NCBI RefSeq assembly: GCF_038235435.1
Contig: NZ_CP151275.1
Span: forward strand, 3,658,001-3,722,000
From: Niveibacterium sp. SC-1
GTDB lineage: Bacteria > Pseudomonadota > Gammaproteobacteria > Burkholderiales > Rhodocyclaceae
Length of the DNA stretch: 64,000 nt
Direction of reading: 5' to 3'
Shown here: piece after piece, positions 21,905 to 58,269 of the stretch
How the letters are laid out: each line of letters begins with the position of its first letter
How positions within the stretch are numbered: position 1 is the first letter of the stretch
Position numbers and translations under genes: made by a program
The notes under the pieces: generated by a model
The model's database searches: none
The model's input: only the letters and a program-made list of their open reading frames with translations
What the model was told of the DNA's origin: nothing

Positions 21905-22972
21905 TCAGATCACCCAGTCGGGCGTCCATCTACGCGCTTCGCTGTCCTCGCTACCGAAGACGGTCACCTGACGCGGCAGGAGCCAGACCTGCTCACCCTG
22001 CGACAGCCCAAGCTGTTGCTGGCGCTCGCGCGAGAGCTCGACTTCGATGACTTCGCTCTGATGCGTAAGTTCGACGCGCACCGCCGGGCCGATCGCCTGC
22101 ACGTGACTCACCGTAGCAGCCAGCGCGCCCTGTGCGTTCTCGCGCAGGATCTCAATGTCGTGCGGACGCACGAAGGCGGTCGCACCCGCACCGCCACCCT
22201 CCTCGCGTGCCACCTCGGCCCAGGGGCCGTGCAGGCGGTTGTGGAAGACGTTCACATTGCCGAGGAAGCGATACACGAAGGGTGTGGCCGGATTTGAATA
22301 CACCTCGTCGGGCGTGCCGACCTGTTCGATGTGACCACGATTCATCACCACCACGCGGTCAGCCACTTCCAGCGCCTCTTCCTGGTCGTGCGTCACGAAC
22401 ACCGAGGAGATGTGCATCTCGTCATGCAGGCGACGCAGCCAGCGACGCAGCTCCTTGCGCACCTGGGTATCGAGCGCACCGAAGGGCTCGTCGAGCAACA
22501 GCACCTTGGGCTCCACGGCCAGTGCGCGGGCGAGCGCGATGCGTTGACGCTGTCCACCGGAGAGCTGCGAGGGATAGCGTTCGGCCAGCCAGTCCAGCTG
22601 CACGAGCTTGAGCAGTTCCATCACGCGCTCGCGGATCTTCGCGTCGCTCGGGCGTTCGTTGCGCGGCTTCACGCGCAGGCCGAAGGCCACGTTCTCGAAC
22701 ACCGTCATGTGGCGGAAGAGCGCGTAGTGCTGGAACACGAAACCCACGTTGCGCTCGCGCGCGTGCAGGTGTGTCGCCTCCTCGCCCGAGAAGAGCACCT
22801 GGCCTTCATCGGCCACTTCCATGCCGGCGATGATCCGCAGCAGCGTGGTCTTGCCGCAGCCTGAAGGGCCCAGGAGGGCGACGAGTTCGCCGGTCGGTAT
22901 GTCCAGCGAGATGTTGTCGAGCGCGACGAAACTGCCGAAGCGCTTCGCGATGTTGCGGATTTCGATGCTCAT
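21905..22972 (-). CDS. cysA: Sulfate/thiosulfate import ATP-binding protein CysA
   Basis: ATPase subunit of the sulfate/thiosulfate ABC importer. The 355-residue protein carries Walker [10 protein letters not shown] (Lys 41), Q-loop [12 protein letters not shown] signature [15 protein letters not shown], Walker [13 protein letters not shown] and switch His in [12 protein letters not shown]-terminal regulatory domain (about residues 235-355) is typical of CysA. It is the last gene of sbp-cysT-cysW-cysA, separated from cysW by 122 bp that contains a hairpin. Confidence 0.95.
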
Positions 22973-23056
22973 GATGTCGTGTGTGTTCGCGTGGTCTGGG
23001 ATCTGGATGAGGGGTAAAAACCCGCTCCTTGCCGTGCTCCGTTGTGGTGAAAGAAA

Positions 23057-23077
23057 GCGGCACCCGTGCGGTGCCGC
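23057..23077 (-). terminator. Hairpin with T-rich tail between cysW and cysA
   Basis: Eight-base stem GCGGCACC / GGTGCCGC with a 5 nt loop, followed on the minus strand by TTTCTTTC. It sits inside the operon, so it may partly terminate transcription before cysA. Confidence 0.55.
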
Positions 23078-23094
23078 GGGTCAGAAAACAGAAC

Positions 23095-48748: not shown

Positions 48749-49909
48749 TCAGTTCCCGTAAGCCGCGGCGAAAACTTCGCGTCCGGCAAGCCAGGTGCTT
48801 ACCACGACGGGCTGCGTCGCGCCTTCCGGCCCGATCTGGCGCACGGCCAGGAGGTCGGCGCGCAGGCCTTCGGCAATCTGACCACGATCGTCCAGCCCCG
48901 CGGCCCGCGCGGGATTCAGGCTCACCAGGCGCACTGCCTCGTGCAGGGGCAGTCCGTCGCGCTCGGCCAGTAGCGTGACCGCGGCAAGCATGGTCGCCGG
49001 CGCGTAGTCGGCGCAGAGGCAATCGGCCACGCCGGCGCGGATCGCGTCGAGCGCGCGCATGTTGCCGGACTGGCTGCCGCCCCGCATCACATTGGGCGCG
49101 CCGAAGATGGTCGCCAGGCCCTGCTCGTGCGCGACCCGCGCGGTCTCCAGGTTGATCGGGAACTCGCTCATACGCGCGCCCAACGCCTTCATGGTCGCGA
49201 CCCGCAGGGGATCGTCATCGTCATGGCTCGCGGTTGGTACGCCGCGGGCACGTGCGCGCTCCATCACGGCGAGCACGCGTGCATCGGCCGTCTCGCGGGA
49301 ACGGATTTTGTCCTCCGCGACCTTCTCCGCGGCTTCGCGGCTGCTGCCGTGGTTGCCCATCACGTAGGCCACATAGGACTCCAGATGGCGGAACTGACCC
49401 TGGCCGGGCGTGTGGTCCATCACCGAGAGCAGGTCCACGCAACCCTCGTCGAGCAAGGCGAGGATGTAGGGCATCGCGGTCTCGTCGGTGATTTCGTAAC
49501 GGATATGGATGCGGTTGTCGACCAGTGCGTCGGCCTGCATGCGCTTGAGCGTACGGACCAGTTCCGAGGCCACGTCGTTGTTGCGCACGCCCCATTCCGC
49601 ATGCGCAAAGGAGAGCGCGTGGTAGGGCGTGGTGATGCCGGCGGCGGCGTTGCGACGGTCGATGTTCATGCACGCGAAGGCATGCGGGAAGAGCACCTTG
49701 GCGCGCGGCTCGACTTCCTTTTCGATCGCGTCGCAGTGCAGGTCCACCATGCCGGGCAGCAGGCTATGGCCGCGCAGGTCTCGCTCCTGCGCGCCGCTTG
49801 CGCCATCGGGCGAGATCGCGCGGATGCGCCCGTCCTCGATCAGCACGGCGGCATCTTCGAGCACTGCGTCGGCCAGCACGACGCGCGCATGGGTCAGGTA
49901 GGTCTTCAT
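48749..49909 (-). CDS. phnM: Alpha-D-ribose 1-methylphosphonate 5-triphosphate diphosphatase PhnM
   Basis: Removes pyrophosphate from ribose 1-alkylphosphonate 5-triphosphate to make the C-P lyase substrate. The 386-residue amidohydrolase has the metal-binding HxD in GMVDLHCDAIEKEVEPR (about residue 57), the conserved SVMDHTPGQGQFR block, TASHDDDD and the C-terminal SLNPARAAGLDDRGQIAEGLRADL. It ends the phnGHIJKLM operon, 55 bp after phnL. A second PhnM-like protein is coded at 55789-56988. No clear terminator follows in the 197 bp to the PEP-CTERM gene. Confidence 0.95.
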   Translation of the reverse strand: MKTYLTHARVVLADAVLEDAAVLIEDGRIRAISPDGASGAQERDLRGHSLLPGMVDLHCDAIEKEVEPRAKVLFPHAFACMNIDRRNAAAGITTPYHALSFAHAEWGVRNNDVASELVRTLKRMQADALVDNRIHIRYEITDETAMPYILALLDEGCVDLLSVMDHTPGQGQFRHLESYVAYVMGNHGSSREAAEKVAEDKIRSRETADARVLAVMERARARGVPTASHDDDDPLRVATMKALGARMSEFPINLETARVAHEQGLATIFGAPNVMRGGSQSGNMRALDAIRAGVADCLCADYAPATMLAAVTLLAERDGLPLHEAVRLVSLNPARAAGLDDRGQIAEGLRADLLAVRQIGPEGATQPVVVSTWLAGREVFAAAYGN

Positions 49910-49964: not shown

Positions 49965-50669
49965 TCAGGCGGCCATCGGCAGTACCGGCAGCCGGCGCGT
50001 GGCCACGGCTTCGCGTACTTCGGCGTCATGGAAGATTCCCACGATCGCCGCGCCGCGCAGGCGGGCCTCGTTGATGAGCTCGACGATCACCGCACGGTTG
50101 CGCGCATCCACCGAGGCGGTGGGTTCGTCCAGCAACAGGATCGGCTTGGGCGCGATGAAGCCCCGCGCGATGTTCACCCGCTGCTGCTCGCCGCCTGAAA
50201 AAGTGGCGGGCGGCAGATGCCAGAGCCGTTCGGGCAAGTTGAGGCGGGCGAGCAAGGCCGCGGCGCTCGCGCGCGCGCTGCCGGCCTCCTCGCCGAGTTC
50301 GCGCAGCGGCCCGGCCACGATGTCCAGCGCGCTCACCCGGGGGATCACCCGCAGGAACTGGCTCACGTAGGAAAGCGTGGTGCGGCGCAGCTCGATCAGC
50401 GTCTGCGGCGACGCCTGCACCAGGTCGTGAAGCTCGCCCGAACCTGCTTCGCACACCTGGATGCTGCCGGCGGCCGCGAGGTAGTTGCCGAAAAGACAGC
50501 GCAGCAAAGTGCTCTTGCCTGCGCCCGAGGGGCCGTCCAGCACCAGGCATTCCCCGTCGTCCAGCGCGAAGGAGACGGTGTCCAGCACCGGGATGCGCAC
50601 GCCGCCCTGGGTGTGCAGGATGAAGTGCTTGGAGAGGCCGTCGACCGCGATCCGTTGTGGCAGGGACAT
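49965..50669 (-). CDS. phnL: C-P lyase ABC-type protein PhnL
   Basis: ABC ATPase of the phosphonate operon, 234 residues, required for phosphonate use but not a transporter subunit; it binds the C-P lyase core. Walker [14 protein letters not shown], the signature [15 protein letters not shown] and Walker [17 protein letters not shown] are all present, with [12 protein letters not shown] at the switch region. I start it at 50667-50669 ([10 protein letters not shown]), which has GGAG six bases upstream; ATG at 50681 is possible. It is 116 bp after phnK. Confidence 0.94.
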
Positions 50670-50785: not shown

Positions 50786-51565
50786 TCAGGCTGCGAGTGC
50801 GGAGGACACCAGCAATTGGGTGTAGGGATGCTGCGGATCGTCCAGCAACTGGTCGGTGAGGCCGGTCTCGACGATGTGGCCGCGCTTCATCACGATCAGC
50901 CGATGCGCGAGCAGGCGCGCGACCGCCAGATCGTGCGTCACCAGGATCACCGCGAGGCGCAGCTCCTGCACGAGGCCGCGCAAGAGGTCGAGGAAGCGCG
51001 CCTGTACCGAGGCATCGAGGCCCGCAGTCGGCTCGTCCATGAACACCAGGCGCGGATGCGTCACCAGGTTGCGGGCGATCTGCAGGCGCTGCTGCATGCC
51101 GCCGGAGAAGGCGCTCGGTGCGTCGTCCAGGCGCGTGGCGTCGATCTCGACGCGGCCCAGCCAGTCCTGCGCGGTGTCGCGGATCGCGCCGTAGTGGCGG
51201 GACCCGACCGCCATCAGGCGCTCGCCGATATTGGCGCCGGCCGAGACGTTCATGCGCAGGCCGTCGCGCGGGTTCTGCCGCACGAAGCCCCAGTCGGTGC
51301 GCCAGAGTTCGCGCAAGGCCGCGTCGGGCAGGCTGCCCAGATCCGTCGGCCCCTTTCCCTTCATGTCGTAGACGACGCTGCCCGCGTCTGGACGCAGCTC
51401 GAAGGCGAGCGTGTTGAGCAGGGTGGACTTGCCCGAGCCCGACTCGCCGGCGATGCACAGCACCTCGCCGGGATAGAGGTCGAAACTCACTTCCTCGCAG
51501 CCCACGCGGCGGCCGTAGTGCTTGGCCAGGCCGCGGACCTGCAGCAGCGGAGACGGCATCTTCAT
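50786..51565 (-). CDS. phnK: C-P lyase ABC-type protein PhnK
   Basis: The second ABC protein of C-P lyase (259 residues), which docks on the PhnGHIJ core and resembles peptide-transporter ATPases. Walker [14 protein letters not shown], signature [14 protein letters not shown], Walker [13 protein letters not shown] and the switch [12 protein letters not shown] are intact. The start overlaps the phnJ stop by ATGA. The C-terminal [13 protein letters not shown] is typical of the family. Confidence 0.95.
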
Positions 51566-52467
51566 GCGGCTTCCTTTCCGCGATGCCCCTGCTCGCGCCG
51601 GGTGCCGCAGTATTCGGTATCGGAGCAGACGAACATGCGACCGCCCTGGTCGTCGAGGATGATCTCGTCGAGGTAGGCGTCGGTCGCACCGCAAAGCGCG
51701 CAGGGATCCTCCCAGCGTTCGACGGTGAAGGGGTGGTCCTCGAAGTCGAGCGAGCGCACGTCGGCGTAAGGCGGCACGGCGTAGACCCGCTTCTCGCGCC
51801 CGGCGCCGAAGAGCTGCAAGGCAGGATTGCGGTGCATTTTCGGATTGTCGAACTTCGGGATCGGCGAGGGCCGCATCAGGTAGTGGCCGTTGACGATCAC
51901 CGGATAGTCGTAGGTGGTCGCGATGCGGCCGTGGCGCACGATGTCCTCGTAGAGCTTCACATGCATCACGCCGTATTCGGAGAGCGCGTGCATGGTGCGG
52001 GTCTCGGTCTCGCGCGGCTCCAGCCAGCGCAGCGGCTCGGGAATCGGCACCTGGTACACGATCACCTGCCCGGCACGCAGCGGTGTTTCCGGGATGCGGT
52101 GGCGGGTCTGGATCAGCGTCGCTTCGCTCGTCTTCTCGGTGGTCGCGACGCCGGTGACCTTGCGGAAGAAGCTGCGGATGTTCACTGCGTTCGTGGTGTC
52201 GTCCGCCCCCTGGTCGATGACCTTGAGCACGTCGGCGGCGCCGATCACCGCCGCGGTGACCTGGATGCCGCCCGTGCCCCAGCCGTAGGGCAGCGGCATC
52301 TCGCGGCTGCCAAAGGGCACCTGGTAGCCGGGGATCGCCACGGCCTTGAGCAGGGCGCGGCGGATCATCCGCTTGGTGTGCTCGTCGAGATAGGCGAAGT
52401 TGTAGCCAGGCTGCATGGCCGCGGCGGTCGGCCCGGTGGTGGTGTCCGTGCGGGAGATCGTGCTCAT
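51562..52467 (-). CDS. phnJ: Radical SAM C-P lyase catalytic subunit PhnJ
   Basis: Cleaves the carbon-phosphorus bond using S-adenosylmethionine and a [4Fe-4S] cluster, releasing the alkane and ribose 1,2-cyclic phosphate 5-phosphate. The 301-residue protein shows the unusual cysteine set CALC, VC and EYC in [10 protein letters not shown] and [13 protein letters not shown] (about residues 256-290): three for the cluster, and one for the substrate thiyl radical. Start and stop overlap neighbours by four bases on each side, so phnIJK are tightly coupled. Confidence 0.97.
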
Positions 52468-53600
52468 TCCTCACCCTCCTCTTCCGGCTGCTGGCTCATG
52501 ATCCGTGCCGCGTCCTCGCCGCCCGCTTCCCAGTCCGCGCGCAAGCGACGGAGCATTTCCAGGTTGGTCTGGAAGTCCACGTAGTGCGGCAGCTTCAGGT
52601 GCTGCACGAAGCCGGAGGCCTCCACGTTGTCGCTGTGCGAGAGCACGAATTCCTCGTCGTTGGCGGGCAGCTCGGTGGACTCGCCAAATTCCGCCGCGCG
52701 CAGCGAGCGGTCCACCAGGGCCATCGCCATCGCCTTGCGCTCCGCATGGCCGAAGGCCAGCCCGTAGCCGCGGGTGAATTGCGGCGGCGCCTCGGCGCTG
52801 CCGTGGAAATCGTTGATCAGCTGGCATTCAGTGAGCAGCACCTCGCCCACTTCGACCGCGAAGCCGAGCTCCTCCACGAAGACCTCGACCGGCACCGCGC
52901 CGTAGCGGATCTCTGCGGCGAAGGGATGGGTGGTCGAGTAACCGCGCTGGGTCGAATAGCCGAGCGCGAGCAGGAAGCCCTCGTCCGCCCGCGCCAGGTT
53001 CTGCAGGCGCGTCGCGCGATCTGCCGGGAAGAGCAAAGGCTCCCGTGTGAGATCGACCGGCGCCCGCTCGTCGACACACGCGGCGGCGGCCTCGATCAGT
53101 CCCTCGCCCGCAAGCAGGTCGGTCACTCGCGGCGCTTCCAGCGGCGCTGCGGGCGCTGGCATCGTGGTCCCAGCGCCCGCAGCCGGTACGCCCTCGGCCA
53201 GGAGGGAGAAATCCAGAAGGCGCTGGGTGTAGTCGTAGGTCGGCCCCAGCACCTGGCCGCCGGGCAGATCCTTGAAGGCGGAGGAAATCCGCCGCTCGAT
53301 CCGCATCCGCCCGGTGTCCAGCGGCAGGCTCTCGGCCAGCCGCGGCAGCGTGGTGCGATAGGCGCGCAGCAGGAAGATCGCCTCCACCAGATCGCCGGCC
53401 GCCTGCTTGATCGCGAGTGCCGCGAGGTCCTCGTCGTAGAGCGAGCCTTCGGTCATGACCCGCGCCACGGCAAGCCGCAGCTGCTGGCGGATCTGCGCGA
53501 CCGAGAGTTCGGCCAGCGCGGGATCACCCCTGCGCGCATCGGCCACCAGCACATGGGACTGCGCGATCGCGCGTTCGCCCCCTTTGACGGCAACGTACAT
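52464..53600 (-). CDS. phnI: C-P lyase core subunit PhnI (purine ribonucleoside hydrolase-like)
   Basis: Core subunit that, with PhnG, PhnH and PhnL, displaces adenine from ATP by phosphonate to form ribose 1-phosphonate 5-triphosphate. The 378 residues begin MYVAVKGGERAIAQSH, a hallmark of PhnI, and continue with RRGDPAL, GGQVLGPTYDYTQRLLDF and the C-terminal FVQHLKLPHYVDFQTNLE. It starts one base after the phnH stop and overlaps phnJ. Confidence 0.96.
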   Translation of the reverse strand: MYVAVKGGERAIAQSHVLVADARRGDPALAELSVAQIRQQLRLAVARVMTEGSLYDEDLAALAIKQAAGDLVEAIFLLRAYRTTLPRLAESLPLDTGRMRIERRISSAFKDLPGGQVLGPTYDYTQRLLDFSLLAEGVPAAGAGTTMPAPAAPLEAPRVTDLLAGEGLIEAAAACVDERAPVDLTREPLLFPADRATRLQNLARADEGFLLALGYSTQRGYSTTHPFAAEIRYGAVPVEVFVEELGFAVEVGEVLLTECQLINDFHGSAEAPPQFTRGYGLAFGHAERKAMAMALVDRSLRAAEFGESTELPANDEEFVLSHSDNVEASGFVQHLKLPHYVDFQTNLEMLRRLRADWEAGGEDAARIMSQQPEEEGEE

Positions 53601-53601
53601 C

Positions 53602-54237
53602 TCAGGCCTCCACGACGACGGTGCGCGGCAGGCCCATCAGGCGATCGCCGCAGGTGAGCAGGAGATCCACGCCGAGCGGGAAGCGCGCCCGGTTGGCCTG
53701 CATGAAGCGGGTGGTCGCGCCGGTCCAGCCGCCCACGCTGATCGAACGGCTGTGCTCGATGCCGGGGCCGCTGAGCCGGATCGGGCCGCCTTCGGCGAGC
53801 TCCGGCACTTCGACCAGCAGCGTGGCGGAGCGGTCCGGATAGCTCGCGCTACCCAGCTGCAACGCTTCGGCGGCGGGCAGCTGCGCGAGGCCATCGAGCA
53901 CCAGAAAGTGCGCCTCATCCGTCGTTTCGACCAGGGTGCAGCCGCTGTGGAAACGCAGCCAGGCTGCGGCTTCGCCCTCACGCAGCGTGGCCGCCAGATG
54001 CACCGGGGTGTCGTAGTCGGACAAGGCGAGTAGCACCGCCGCGCGCGCCACGCCCAAGCCGAAGGGCGCCGACAGTTTCACCGGCAGTTCCGCGATGCGG
54101 CCCGGCTCGGCCAGCGCATGCAGCACGCTGCGAAAGCTCGCCTGCGCGTCATGCACCGGATCGGCAAAACCCGGAAGCAGCCGCGACAGATCCATCGGCC
54201 CGCGTTCGGTGATCGTGTGTTCGTTGCTCACGTTCAT
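53602..54237 (-). CDS. phnH: C-P lyase core subunit PhnH
   Basis: Dimeric core subunit of the phosphonate C-P lyase, 211 residues. The segment PGFADPVHDAQASFRSVLHA and the block EPGRIAELP match PhnH; the C-terminal end GVDLLLTCGDRLMGLPRT is also conserved. The ATG 54235-54237 overlaps the phnG stop (ATGA). No active site of its own is assigned in the family. Confidence 0.95.
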   Translation of the reverse strand: MNVSNEHTITERGPMDLSRLLPGFADPVHDAQASFRSVLHALAEPGRIAELPVKLSAPFGLGVARAAVLLALSDYDTPVHLAATLREGEAAAWLRFHSGCTLVETTDEAHFLVLDGLAQLPAAEALQLGSASYPDRSATLLVEVPELAEGGPIRLSGPGIEHSRSISVGGWTGATTRFMQANRARFPLGVDLLLTCGDRLMGLPRTVVVEA

Positions 54238-54761
54238 GCGTCCCCCCGCACCAGGGTGAAGAAGTCCACCTTGCTCGCCGCAACCTCCGCGGCACGATTG
54301 GCTTGCTGCTCGGCTTCGTACTCGGCCAGCGGCCGCAGGACCAGGTCCTTCACGCGTCCGGCCGATTCCGGGCCTTGCAGGAGCGCGTCGCAGAGCGCGA
54401 CCAGCTCCGCATGGCGCTTGCTGCAACCTCGCACGAGGCCCACGCCGACTGCGCCGTCTTCGGTGCGAAGGGTGCAGCGGGTCAGGCTGGTCTCTCCCAG
54501 ATTGAAGGGCGCGCCATCGCCAGCGATGCGTCCGCGCAACATCACGGTGCCGGTTTCGGGGCGACGCAACCAGACGAAAGGCGGCGCCTCGCCGAAAACC
54601 TGCATGCAGGCCTCGACCCGTTCGGCGCTGGCGCGCGCCAGCACCCCCAGAGCATGGCGGCGCGCCTCGGCGGCCTGGTTGTGTACCGCCCCGGACGCCA
54701 GTCCGGAGGCTGATTCGGGCGCCGTTTCGGACGGTGCTGCGCTGATGTCGGAACGACTCAT
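54234..54761 (-). CDS. phnG: C-P lyase core subunit PhnG
   Basis: First gene of the phnGHIJKLM operon. The 175-residue protein carries the PhnG block RRPETGTVMLRGRIAGDG and the region NLGETSLTRCTLR. The ATG 54759-54761 (MSRSDISAAP) has AGGGGA six bases upstream; an ATG two codons earlier is also possible. The promoter, with PhnF-type sites, lies 29 bp upstream. Confidence 0.94.
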   Translation of the reverse strand: MSRSDISAAPSETAPESASGLASGAVHNQAAEARRHALGVLARASAERVEACMQVFGEAPPFVWLRRPETGTVMLRGRIAGDGAPFNLGETSLTRCTLRTEDGAVGVGLVRGCSKRHAELVALCDALLQGPESAGRVKDLVLRPLAEYEAEQQANRAAEVAASKVDFFTLVRGDA

Positions 54762-54953: not shown

Positions 54954-55682
54954 ATGACGGTGGAGCGGGGACAGGGCGTCGCGGTGTGGCGCCAGATCGA
55001 GGCGGCCTTGACGGAGGACATCCGCCAGCAGCATTTCGCGCCGGGCGAACGCCTGCCCAACGAGAGCGAACTGGCCGAACGCTTCGGCGTGAATCGCCAC
55101 ACGGTACGCCGCGCGCTCGGGGTGCTGGAGCGCGGCGGCCTCATCCGCGTCGAACAGGGACGCGGCACCTTCGTGCAGGACTACGCGATCGACTACACGA
55201 TCGCGCGCCGCACCCGTTTCTCGCAGAACCTGGAGAACGTCGGCCTCTCCTCCAGCATCGAGGTACAGCGTACCAGCGAGCTGCCGGCCAGCGCCGAGAT
55301 CGCAAAGGCCCTGGGTCTGCGCCGCGGCGCCAAGGTCGTGCAGGTGGTCACCCTGGGCCGCGCCGAGGGTCGGCCGATCAATACCGCGGAGAGCTTCTTT
55401 GCCGCAGCCCGTTTCGCGGGCATCGGCGAACGGATCCGCGCGCTCGGCTCGATCACCCAGGCGCTGCGCGAGTACGAGGTCGCCGACTACACCCGCGGCA
55501 CCACGCGTGTGACGGCCCGCTTGCCCGACGATGAGACCGCGCGCCTGCTCGCCCAACCGAAGTCGCGCCCGGTGCTGCATGTGGAATCGATCAACCTCGA
55601 CGCCGAGGGCGCGCCTTTGCAGTACTCGATCGCCAACTTCTCGGGCGACTGGGTGCAGTTCGTGTTCGATCCGAGCCAGTAG
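54954..55682 (+). CDS. phnF: Phosphonate regulator PhnF (GntR/HutC family)
   Basis: A 242-residue regulator: N-terminal winged helix (GERLPNESELAERFGVNRHTVRRALG) and a UTRA ligand domain (about 95-235). It is divergent from phnG by 192 bp and precedes the second phnM on the plus strand. The putative operators in the divergent region and upstream of phnM2 suggest it controls both operons, and possibly itself. HutC-family proteins usually act as repressors released by a ligand; the ligand here is not known. Confidence 0.93.
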   Translation: MTVERGQGVAVWRQIEAALTEDIRQQHFAPGERLPNESELAERFGVNRHTVRRALGVLERGGLIRVEQGRGTFVQDYAIDYTIARRTRFSQNLENVGLSSSIEVQRTSELPASAEIAKALGLRRGAKVVQVVTLGRAEGRPINTAESFFAAARFAGIGERIRALGSITQALREYEVADYTRGTTRVTARLPDDETARLLAQPKSRPVLHVESINLDAEGAPLQYSIANFSGDWVQFVFDPSQ

Positions 55683-55733: not shown

Positions 55734-55788
55734 TCTGTAATTGGCTGGCCCTACCCTGTGCGCATTCACGGCCGTCGGAGGACATGAC

Positions 55789-56988
55789 ATGCAACTTGCA
55801 ACGCAGGCCGCGCATCCCGCAGTCGCTCCTGCCCCGGCGGTCAGCACCTCTTCGCTGGCAGGGTTGCTTGGCGGCCGCGTGCTACGTGCAGAGGGCCAGT
55901 GGGACGAGGCGCCACTCTTCATCGAGGAAGGCCGTATCAGCGACCGGCCGCAACCGGGCCGCTGGCTGGACGCACGCGACTGCCTGGTGCTGCCCGGCAT
56001 CGTCGACTTCCACGGCGACGCCTTCGAGCGCCAGATCATGCCGCGGCCGGGCGTGCGCTTTCCGCTCGATCTCGCCCTGCTCGATACCGACCGCCAGCTC
56101 GCCGCCAACGGCATCACCACGGCGCTGCACGGTGTCACCTATTCCTGGGAGGGCGGGCTGCGCGGCAAGGAGACGGCCGAGGGCCTGTTCGACGCACTCG
56201 ACCGCCTGGCGCCGCGCCTGCAGGTACAGCACAAGGTGCATCTGCGCTTCGAATGCCACAACGTCGCCGGCGAGGCTGACGCGCAGCGCTGGTTGCGGGC
56301 GGGCCAGGTGAGTCTGCTCGCCTTCAACGAGCATCTGCCCGGCATGCGCCGCAAGCCGCACAAGCTGCAGGAGTACGCCGACCGCGCGGGCACCGACGTC
56401 GCGGGCTTCATGGCCCTGATCGACGCGGCGGTGGAGCGCACCGACGAGGTCTCCCTGGTGGTCGAGCGACTGGCGCTGCAGGCGCGCCGCCGTGGCATCC
56501 CCATGGCCTCGCATGACGACCCCAGCACTGCGGTGCGCGACCACTACCAGACCATGGGCTGCCACGTCTCCGAATTCCCGCTCACGCGCGAAGTGGCCCG
56601 CCATGCACAGGCCACCGATTCGCCGGTGGTCTGCGGCGCGCCCAATGTGCTGCGCGGCGGCAGCCACGTCGGCGCGCCGGCGGCCGAGGAACTCGCGCGC
56701 GAAGGCCAGTGCAGCATCCTCGCCTCCGACTACTACTATCCGGCGCCGCTGCATGCGGCGCTCAAGCTCGCCGACGTAGGCGCCCTGCCGCTCGCAGCGG
56801 CCTGGAACCTGATCTCGCACAATCCCGCGCAGGCGTTGGGCATGACCGATCGAGGACGCCTTGCCGCCGGCCTGCGCGCCGATGCCCTGGTGCTCGATGC
56901 GCGCGACCCGCGCGCGCCGCGGCTGGTGGCCACCGTGGCAGGCGGCCGCCTCGCCTACCTCGCCGACGGAGACCGCCTGCATGCATGA
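55789..56988 (+). CDS. Second PhnM-like amidohydrolase
   Basis: A 399-residue protein of the PhnM family (alpha-D-ribose 1-methylphosphonate 5-triphosphate diphosphatase). The metal motif GIVDFHGDAFERQ has the HxD (His near residue 75), ASHDDPSTAVRD matches the catalytic His-Asp region, and SHNPAQALGMTDRGRLAAG the C-terminal block. It differs clearly from the other PhnM in this locus, including a lengthened N-terminus and YPAPLHAALK. The ATG 55789 follows GGAGG. It overlaps the next gene by 8 bases, so it is coupled with DUF1045 and phnN. Confidence 0.9.
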   Translation: MQLATQAAHPAVAPAPAVSTSSLAGLLGGRVLRAEGQWDEAPLFIEEGRISDRPQPGRWLDARDCLVLPGIVDFHGDAFERQIMPRPGVRFPLDLALLDTDRQLAANGITTALHGVTYSWEGGLRGKETAEGLFDALDRLAPRLQVQHKVHLRFECHNVAGEADAQRWLRAGQVSLLAFNEHLPGMRRKPHKLQEYADRAGTDVAGFMALIDAAVERTDEVSLVVERLALQARRRGIPMASHDDPSTAVRDHYQTMGCHVSEFPLTREVARHAQATDSPVVCGAPNVLRGGSHVGAPAAEELAREGQCSILASDYYYPAPLHAALKLADVGALPLAAAWNLISHNPAQALGMTDRGRLAAGLRADALVLDARDPRAPRLVATVAGGRLAYLADGDRLHA

Positions 56989-57715
56989 CCTGCAGCGCTT
57001 CGATCCCGCCACCGCGCGCTTCGCCCTCTACTACACGCCGCCGGCCGGCTCGCCCCATGACGCTTTCGGCAGCGTCTGGCTCGGGCGCGATGCGCGCAGC
57101 GGCGCCACGATCACCCAACCCGTGGTGCCCGGCCTGGACGCCGCGCGTCTCGCCGCACTGACCGCCTCGCCGCGCCTCTACGGCCTGCATGCCACGCTCA
57201 AGCCGCCTTTCCGCCTGCGCGAGGGCGCATCGCCCGAGGACATCGACACGCGGCTGCGTGCCGTCGTACCGGCACTGACGCCGTTCTCCTTCCGTGTCGT
57301 CGCCGCGCCGCTGGACGGATTTCTTGCGTGGCAACCGCGCGACCGTCGCGACGCGATCGCCGTCGTCGCCGAAACCTGCGTCACGCGCCTCGACGAACTG
57401 CGTGCACCGCCCTCGGAAGCCGAACTCGCCCGCCGCCGCGCCGCGCGCCTGAGCGACCGGCAGGAAACGCTGCTCGCGCGCTGGGGCTATCCGTATGTGC
57501 TGGACCAGTTCCGCTTCCACATCAGCCTGAGCGAGCGGGTTTCGGCGGCGGAGGCGGACCTGTTGCTCAGTGCGCTGGCCGCGCAGACCGAAGGGCTCGA
57601 GCGCGAGCCCTTGCGCTTTGACGCGATCAGCCTCTTCGTCCAGCCCGACGCCGGCGAGGATTTCCGCCATGTCGCGCGCTACGGCTTCGACGGCAAGGTG
57701 GAGGCGATCGGCTGA
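56981..57715 (+). CDS. DUF1045 protein, 2H-phosphoesterase-like, candidate PhnP replacement
   Basis: A 244-residue phosphonate-locus protein (DUF1045). Two HxT/S motifs are visible: HATL at residue 70 and HISL at residue 180, the arrangement of the 2H phosphoesterase superfamily, which act on cyclic phosphodiesters. Since phnP, the usual enzyme hydrolysing 5-phosphoribosyl 1,2-cyclic phosphate, is not in this window, the protein is a likely functional substitute; this is inference. It overlaps phnM2 by 8 bases and shares one base with the start of phnN, so it is tightly coupled between the steps before and after the predicted reaction. Confidence 0.85.
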   Translation: MHDLQRFDPATARFALYYTPPAGSPHDAFGSVWLGRDARSGATITQPVVPGLDAARLAALTASPRLYGLHATLKPPFRLREGASPEDIDTRLRAVVPALTPFSFRVVAAPLDGFLAWQPRDRRDAIAVVAETCVTRLDELRAPPSEAELARRRAARLSDRQETLLARWGYPYVLDQFRFHISLSERVSAAEADLLLSALAAQTEGLEREPLRFDAISLFVQPDAGEDFRHVARYGFDGKVEAIG

Positions 57716-58269
57716 TGGGCGCACGCCTGGTGTACGTGGTCGGAGCCTCCGGCGTCGGCAAGGACAGTGTGCTCGCCGCGCTGCGTGCCTCGCTGCAGGC
57801 CGGGGAGCGCATCGCGGTGGCCCATCGCTACATCACCCGGCCGGTGGCCGCCGAAGGCGAGAACCATGTGGCACTGAGCGAGGCGGAGTTCCACCTGCGG
57901 CGCGAGGCCGGCTGCTTCGCCCTGTGCTGGGAGAGCCACGGCCTGCACTACGGCGTGGGGCGCGAGATCGAGCACTGGCTGGCGCAAGACCTCACGGTGC
58001 TGGTCAACGGCTCGCGCGCCTACTGGCCGGAAGCCCGCAGGCGCTTCGGCGCGGCCCGCCTGGTGGAGATCACCGCCAGCGCCGAGACCTTGCGTGCCCG
58101 CCTCGCCCGGCGCGGGCGCGAGAGTGCCCCCGAACAGGCGCTACGCCTGGCGCGCACGCAGCAGCTAGCGCGCGAACCCTGGCAGGTGGATCACAGCATC
58201 CGCAACGAGAGCACCATCAGCGATGCCGCCTGGGCGCTCAAGGCCTGGCTGGGCGGTCTCGAGCCCTGA
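57715..58269 (+). CDS. phnN: Ribose 1,5-bisphosphate phosphokinase PhnN
   Basis: Phosphorylates ribose 1,5-bisphosphate with ATP to PRPP, the last step of C-P lyase degradation of phosphonates. The 184-residue guanylate-kinase-like protein has the P-loop GASGVGKDSVL (residues 10-20), and the RYITRPVAAEGENHVALSEAEF block conserved in PhnN. The ATG overlaps the DUF1045 stop (TGATG). Last gene of the plus-strand operon; its stop lies within a tandem repeat. Confidence 0.95.
   Translation: MGARLVYVVGASGVGKDSVLAALRASLQAGERIAVAHRYITRPVAAEGENHVALSEAEFHLRREAGCFALCWESHGLHYGVGREIEHWLAQDLTVLVNGSRAYWPEARRRFGAARLVEITASAETLRARLARRGRESAPEQALRLARTQQLAREPWQVDHSIRNESTISDAAWALKAWLGGLEP

Follow-up and report, generated by a model that had tools for sequence, protein, structure and literature searches.

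Which enzyme opens 5-phosphoribosyl 1,2-cyclic phosphate (PRcP), the expected product of the lyase subunit PhnJ, in a bacterium whose carbon-phosphorus (C-P) lyase genes come without phnP? The question is raised by a locus of Niveibacterium sp. SC-1, contained in a stretch of 64,000 nucleotides (contig NZ_CP151275.1, positions 3,658,001 to 3,722,000; hereafter the window), in which a gene for a protein of the DUF1045 family stands third in a forward-strand row, phnF, phnM2, DUF1045 and phnN, that diverges from phnGHIJKLM1 on the reverse strand. The protein is very probably a metal-independent cyclic phosphodiesterase of the 2H type that replaces PhnP in the C-P lyase pathway, an activity predicted from its fold and its setting. 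The first-pass annotation of this DNA had offered the same reading, which now finds support in the family, fold and motifs of the protein, in the failure of any PhnP to exceed its family cut-off, in gene order, in DUF1045-PhnN fusions and in a degenerate PhnP homologue of the genus Thioalbus.

The gene is an uninterrupted reading frame of 244 codons for amino acids, and its product belongs to Pfam DUF1045 (PF06299), matching 159 of 159 model positions at 168.3 bits against a gathering cut-off of 24.3. The 2'-5' RNA ligase-like model PF13563 also matches (29.1 bits, cut-off 27). At E 0.001 the sole NCBIfam match is TIGR03223 (Phn_opern_protn), the phosphonate-operon branch of the family, which covers the full length at 244.4 bits and thus falls 4.5 bits below the curated cut-off of 248.95; near misses occur elsewhere, both in a phn cluster (P0243, 232.1 bits) and in another genome with PhnJ (L114, 245.6 bits). 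Translation bears out the two HxT/S motifs annotated earlier, which start at residues 70 (HATL) and 180 (HISL). Across 117 of 117 aligned rows H70, T72 and H180 are invariant, and position 182, mostly threonine and here serine, is conserved in at least 90%, a pattern that exceeds chance. Of 81 genome rows, 78 have all four motif residues; the other three are second copies that accompany an intact one. The genome of the window has a single copy. The second copies lacking the full motif are L119 (genome of L051, Agrobacterium bohemicum), L120 (genome of L081, Xaviernesmea rhizosphaerae) and a split piece, L121 (genome of L038, Mesorhizobium erdmanii), and each of these genomes has its intact DUF1045 elsewhere.

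An AlphaFold model of the protein is confident (predicted local distance difference test, 96.8), and fold comparison identifies it as a 2H phosphoesterase that aligns end to end with 2H enzymes. The motif histidines, which may face one pocket, stand at the starts of strands E71-77 and E181-186. A search of the DUF1045 profile against the sequences of solved structures returned nothing significant (best E 0.077), leaving fold comparison alone as informative. A mechanism can be proposed. PRcP released by PhnJ would be bound with the help of conserved arginines R13, R141 and R152 at its 5-phosphate, T72 and S182 would hold the cyclic phosphate, and H70 and H180 would serve as general acid and base for the attack of water. 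Cleavage of the bond to O2, the presumed choice, would leave the phosphate on C1, and the product, ribose 1,5-bisphosphate, would pass to PhnN for conversion to phosphoribosyl pyrophosphate (PRPP). Both the substrate, PRcP, and the independence from metal are predictions for DUF1045.

Gene order fits a role at this step. The earlier annotation had described the gene as coupled by overlaps to phnM2 and phnN, and so it is: phnM2 ends at 56988 and DUF1045 begins at 56981, an overlap of 8 bases, while its stop codon and the start of phnN have one base, 57715, in common. The start of phnM2 is most likely the ATG at 55789, which lies behind GGAGGA, rather than the TTG at 55741 given in the list of open reading frames. 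Among 51 labelled cases, 40 have a phnM or phnN no more than 400 bases away from DUF1045 and on its strand.

The absence of phnP noted earlier at the locus was upheld when the 64-kb window was searched with E. coli PhnP, which matched nothing, and it extends to the genome, which consists of one contig (5171880 bases) with a completeness rating of 100%. In the whole genome the best match to the PhnP family reaches 22.2 bits, far from the cut-off of 272.25, and covers positions 46-190 of the 249 in the model. This protein is recognized better by RNase Z models (68.5 bits, likewise below cut-off) and is missed by E. coli PhnP. As a control, the same search applied to 14 known genomes gave matches in 11, with one, that of E. 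coli, over the cut-off. The Lactamase_B_2 family has ten places in the genome, five over its cut-off, and E. coli PhnP detected none of the ten at E 10. On these whole-genome searches with the PhnP family and E. coli PhnP, a PhnP elsewhere was rejected. PHP domains occur in two long open frames (1175 and 1076 residues) and in one frame of 278 residues. The last was considered as a PHP-type PRcP enzyme (NF041661) and rejected at 65.7 bits against a cut-off of 500; it belongs with the 3',5'-nucleoside bisphosphate phosphatases, at 423.6 bits against a cut-off of 400. Rejection of a PHP-type enzyme refers to this protein, the two long frames having been left out of further scans.

The distribution of DUF1045 was compared with that of PhnP. 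A scan with PhnJ kept the best 80 of at least 594 relatives, mostly from alpha- and betaproteobacteria, and because the best matches were kept the sample leans toward PhnJs similar to that of the window. DUF1045 lay inside the fetched flanks in 45 of these loci (phmmer 95-177 bits with the window protein); the remaining 35 genomes were searched whole, and 24 contained a DUF1045 of at least 206 bits, one (L078) a scrap of 21 bits and ten none. PhnP exceeded its cut-off in eight, none of them with DUF1045, so that 69 genomes have DUF1045 only, 8 PhnP only, 3 neither and none both. The three are a cyanobacterium (L070), a Desulfovibrio (L078) and a metagenome-assembled genome (MAG; L085), the last a 4.3-kb contig that carries little weight. 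The phn cluster of the Desulfovibrio includes phnN. An even draw of 369 genomes from the class of the window gave PhnJ in 10 and full-length DUF1045 in 10, with both in 7 (Fisher p 8e-11); the count of full-length proteins omits four weak PF06299 matches of 25.8-39.6 bits (G041, G263, G293 and G320), none in a genome with PhnJ. All three PhnJ genomes without DUF1045 (G136, G138 and G143) have PhnP over the cut-off. Two intact DUF1045 genes were seen outside phosphonate clusters, both on the reverse strand (L193, 9739-10443; L194, 9931-10638), one neighboured by SCO1/PCuAC copper-assembly genes and the other by genes for a class IV aminotransferase and a kynureninase-like protein.

DUF1045-PhnN fusions are common. 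Three longer proteins with a kinase domain stood among 120 listed relatives; a search with one of them matched 4552 proteins, of which the best 120 were listed, giving 121 listed proteins for examination altogether. All of them combine a DUF1045 part with a PhnN part, and H70, T72, H180, T/S182 and the PhnN P-loop are kept in 120, the exception (P0163, 255 residues) being a probable fragment. Two fusions stand within phn clusters: that of Noviherbaspirillum sp. Root189 (L014) follows phnM2, as DUF1045 does in the window, and that of a Rhodocyclaceae MAG (L036) adjoins phnF. NCBIfam models find both halves in each, with PhnN over its cut-off in both and TIGR03223 over in L014 and under in L036, and neither genome has PhnP over the cut-off. 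That the domain is joined to the enzyme which acts next is good evidence of where DUF1045 belongs in the pathway. A literature search of limited coverage found no report of such a fusion, which may be in print elsewhere.

In the class draw, two genomes of one genus (G084 and G208), the only genus in which DUF1045 and PhnP were seen together in an operon, have consecutive genes for PhnM, DUF1045, PhnN and a homologue of PhnP; the homologue in G084 is identical to a protein named Thioalbus denitrificans. The homologues score 141.9 and 117.3 bits, respectively. The metal site of E. coli PhnP, which we take to be H76, H78, D80, H81, H143, D164 and H222, is largely gone from both, the E. coli motif HYHMDH reading DWRPGR in G084 and H143 and D164 being replaced as well, so that six of the seven positions are lost whereas H222 and three cysteines are kept. 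The metal-site and cysteine positions are conserved in the seven genome PhnPs aligned, and the DUF1045 proteins next to the Thioalbus homologues have the complete motif. Decay of PhnP next to an intact DUF1045 fits a takeover by the latter. A search for further PhnPs of this kind gave three proteins only, the third with its ligand motif intact, and the order of G084 contains just these two genomes. Nothing on a PhnP pseudoenzyme in C-P lyase operons was found in a literature search of limited coverage; it may be in print elsewhere.

Features of the phosphonate locus in the window, and the two Thioalbus PhnP homologues (L002 and L007)
Feature	Position	Strand	Evidence
DUF1045 gene, proposed 2H-type phosphoribosyl 1,2-cyclic phosphate phosphodiesterase	56981..57715	+	PF06299; TIGR03223 just below cut-off; AlphaFold model; 2H fold matches
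First HxT motif HATL, residues 70-73	57188..57199	+	H70, T72 invariant in alignment
Second HxS motif HISL, residues 180-183	57518..57529	+	H180 invariant; position 182 conserved in at least 90%
phnN, ribose 1,5-bisphosphokinase	57715..58269	+	TIGR02322, 189.1 bits, cut-off 156
phnM2, second PhnM-type hydrolase	55789..56988	+	NF011987, 455.8 bits, cut-off 253
phnF, GntR-type regulator heading the + strand genes	54954..55682	+	TIGR02325, 274.4 bits, cut-off 156.8
phnG	54234..54761	-	TIGR03293, 153.8 bits
phnH	53602..54195	-	TIGR03292, 185.2 bits
phnI	52464..53600	-	phmmer, 452 bits with E. coli PhnI; no NCBIfam model at E 0.001
phnJ, C-P lyase subunit	51562..52467	-	PF06007, 497.4 bits; no NCBIfam model at E 0.001
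phnK	50786..51565	-	phmmer, 339 bits with E. coli PhnK
phnL	49965..50669	-	phmmer, 268 bits with E. coli PhnL
phnM1	48749..49909	-	NF011989, 573.3 bits, cut-off 565
Thioalbus PhnP homologue without metal site	L002 4202-5005	-	alignment; operon with intact DUF1045
Thioalbus PhnP homologue without metal site	L007 4876-5679	-	alignment; operon with intact DUF1045

The cluster has two PhnM-type hydrolases, with phnM2 drawn from a different subfamily (NF011987); a second phnM has been noted in print before. The conserved set of histidines and aspartates is kept in phnM2 except that E replaces D at E. coli position 164, and a phnM2-type gene occurs in 10 of the 80 PhnJ loci, adjoining DUF1045 in seven. 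A phosphonate transporter seems to be absent beside the cluster as judged by PhnC and PhnD, PhnE not having been searched: E. coli PhnD has no match in the window, and outside the cluster there is a single PhnC-like ATP-binding cassette protein, at 21908-23080 (111 bits).

That DUF1045 replaces PhnP is not a new idea. Martinez and others described the gene, under the name rcsF, on a fosmid from Rhodobacteraceae that has no phnP; they suggested that its product takes the place of PhnP, and found that E. coli lacking phnHIJKLMNOP grew on methylphosphonate with the fosmid (PMC3840354). E. coli phnP strains cannot convert phosphonate to a usable phosphorus compound (PMC3463581), and from the two findings we infer that the fosmid must supply the PRcP step. 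A 2023 review, drawing on earlier work, records PhnP for 27 of 54 operons and rcsF for 16 that lack phnP (PMC10574752). DUF1045 has been termed a putative phosphoribosyl cyclic phosphodiesterase (PMC8235418), and a table accompanying an account of the phosphorus-stress response includes a DUF1045 protein with those of the C-P lyase (PMC10132767). No enzyme assay of DUF1045 was found in the portions of the literature searched. The present analysis adds the DUF1045-PhnN fusions, the distribution of DUF1045 and PhnP, and the Thioalbus PhnP without a metal site.

Several observations weigh against assigning the PRcP step to DUF1045. For the window gene the case is strong on context and fold, from which the chemistry is a prediction, and the fosmid of Martinez and others carries additional genes. 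On a PhnJ tree of 91 rows (long branches: L008, L070, L005, L088, L033 and L074) a single change suffices to account for the PhnP label. The mutual exclusion of the two proteins therefore makes a strong rule, yet it does not amount to a series of independent events. Three of the ten genomes with full-length DUF1045 in the class draw are without PhnJ; their copies retain the motif and stand beside copper-assembly genes (G154), beside aminotransferase-type genes (G258) or on contig ends, one with phnM (G354). The family may thus act on other substrates as well, including other cyclic phosphates. Near-full-length PhnP-like metallo-beta-lactamases below the cut-off (47.9-87.5 bits) accompany DUF1045 in 18 of the 69 genomes, and weaker matches at E 0.001 are frequent (42 of 49 and 30 of 31 genomes); a protein of the former kind could open PRcP in the genomes that have it. 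The dead PhnP, finally, comes from one genus and shows no sign of free drift: when the two genomes are compared, phnP has corrected nonsynonymous and synonymous divergences (dN, dS) of 0.119 and 0.244, compared with 0.081 and 0.231 for DUF1045 and 0.116 and 0.266 for phnN, and the remnant may be retained for something. The sub-cut-off metallo-beta-lactamases were considered as missed PhnPs and set aside, since Klebsiella grimontii (G398) has one (80.7 bits) in addition to a true PhnP. Five that were checked (L126, L127, L129, L156 and L157) keep the metal-site residues and lack two of the three PhnP cysteines, which, together with the Klebsiella case, makes them seem a separate family.

These points lend some weight to a different role, in which PRcP is opened by another hydrolase and DUF1045, still a 2H enzyme within the pathway, handles a by-product or some other cyclic phosphate, such as a 2',3'-cyclic nucleotide or dephosphorylated ribose 1,2-cyclic phosphate. 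E. coli phnP strains do produce ribosyl 1,2-cyclic phosphate (PMC3463581), some DUF1045 genes lie outside phn clusters, and a potential second hydrolase is present in the genomes with PhnP-like metallo-beta-lactamases. The genome of the window, by contrast, offers no PhnP-like protein beyond its 22-bit partial match, its small PHP protein is a phosphatase of another kind, and fusion to PhnN indicates the step immediately before that kinase; this alternative is accordingly unlikely. Much less probable still is a hidden PhnP-like or PHP-type enzyme elsewhere that would render DUF1045 redundant. A phnP may sit apart from its cluster, as in G138, where phnP and phnJ are on different contigs, but the genome-wide PhnP, Lactamase_B_2 and PHP searches gave no candidate near a known PRcP enzyme, and none of the Lactamase_B_2 places answered to E. 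coli PhnP. Equally improbable is that DUF1045 is non-catalytic and serves PhnM or PhnN in a structural or regulatory capacity; the frequent proximity to those genes and the motif-incomplete copies in three genomes would accord with it, whereas the motif is intact in all genome rows but those of the three second copies, each of which has an intact partner, and in 120 of 121 fusions.

The reading of DUF1045 as the enzyme that stands in for PhnP can probably be widened beyond the window: in the C-P lyase pathways of alpha- and betaproteobacteria it is likely to be the enzyme chiefly responsible for opening PRcP, frequently as one half of a bifunctional fusion with PhnN that would take PRcP directly to PRPP, and the Thioalbus PhnP would have decayed to a remnant because of the takeover. 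In the sample of 80 C-P lyase genomes, which leans toward the kin of the window, 72 are without a textbook PhnP over the cut-off. If true, the assignment would close the gap in the pathway of many bacteria, whether marine, plant-associated or from soil, that grow on phosphonates, including methylphosphonate, a source of methane; a domain of unknown function would gain an assignable reaction, and a single fusion polypeptide should convert PRcP and ATP to PRPP.

PhnP is a metallo-beta-lactamase, and the fold of E. coli PhnP (TIGR03307) is unrelated to that of the 2H protein, although both would convert PRcP to ribose 1,5-bisphosphate ahead of PhnN; the window protein lies outside the PhnP family and, as predicted, would act like PhnP yet is not PhnP. 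The PHP-type phosphoribosyl 1,2-cyclic phosphate 1,2-diphosphodiesterase (NF041661) represents another solution to PRcP without PhnP, with a PHP rather than a 2H fold; the enzyme of Eggerthella lenta, PhnPP, reportedly described by Ghodge and Raushel in 2013, is said to free both ester bonds. Among 2H enzymes, the Arabidopsis cyclic phosphodiesterase (1fsi, 1jh6, 1jh7) has about 180 residues compared with 244 in the window protein, with 9-12% identity. RcsF/DUF1045 of other C-P lyase clusters shares the family, the position by phnM and phnN and the setting in a cluster without phnP; the window copy differs in falling under the TIGR03223 cut-off and in lying in a phnF-phnM2-DUF1045-phnN arm divergent from phnGHIJKLM1.
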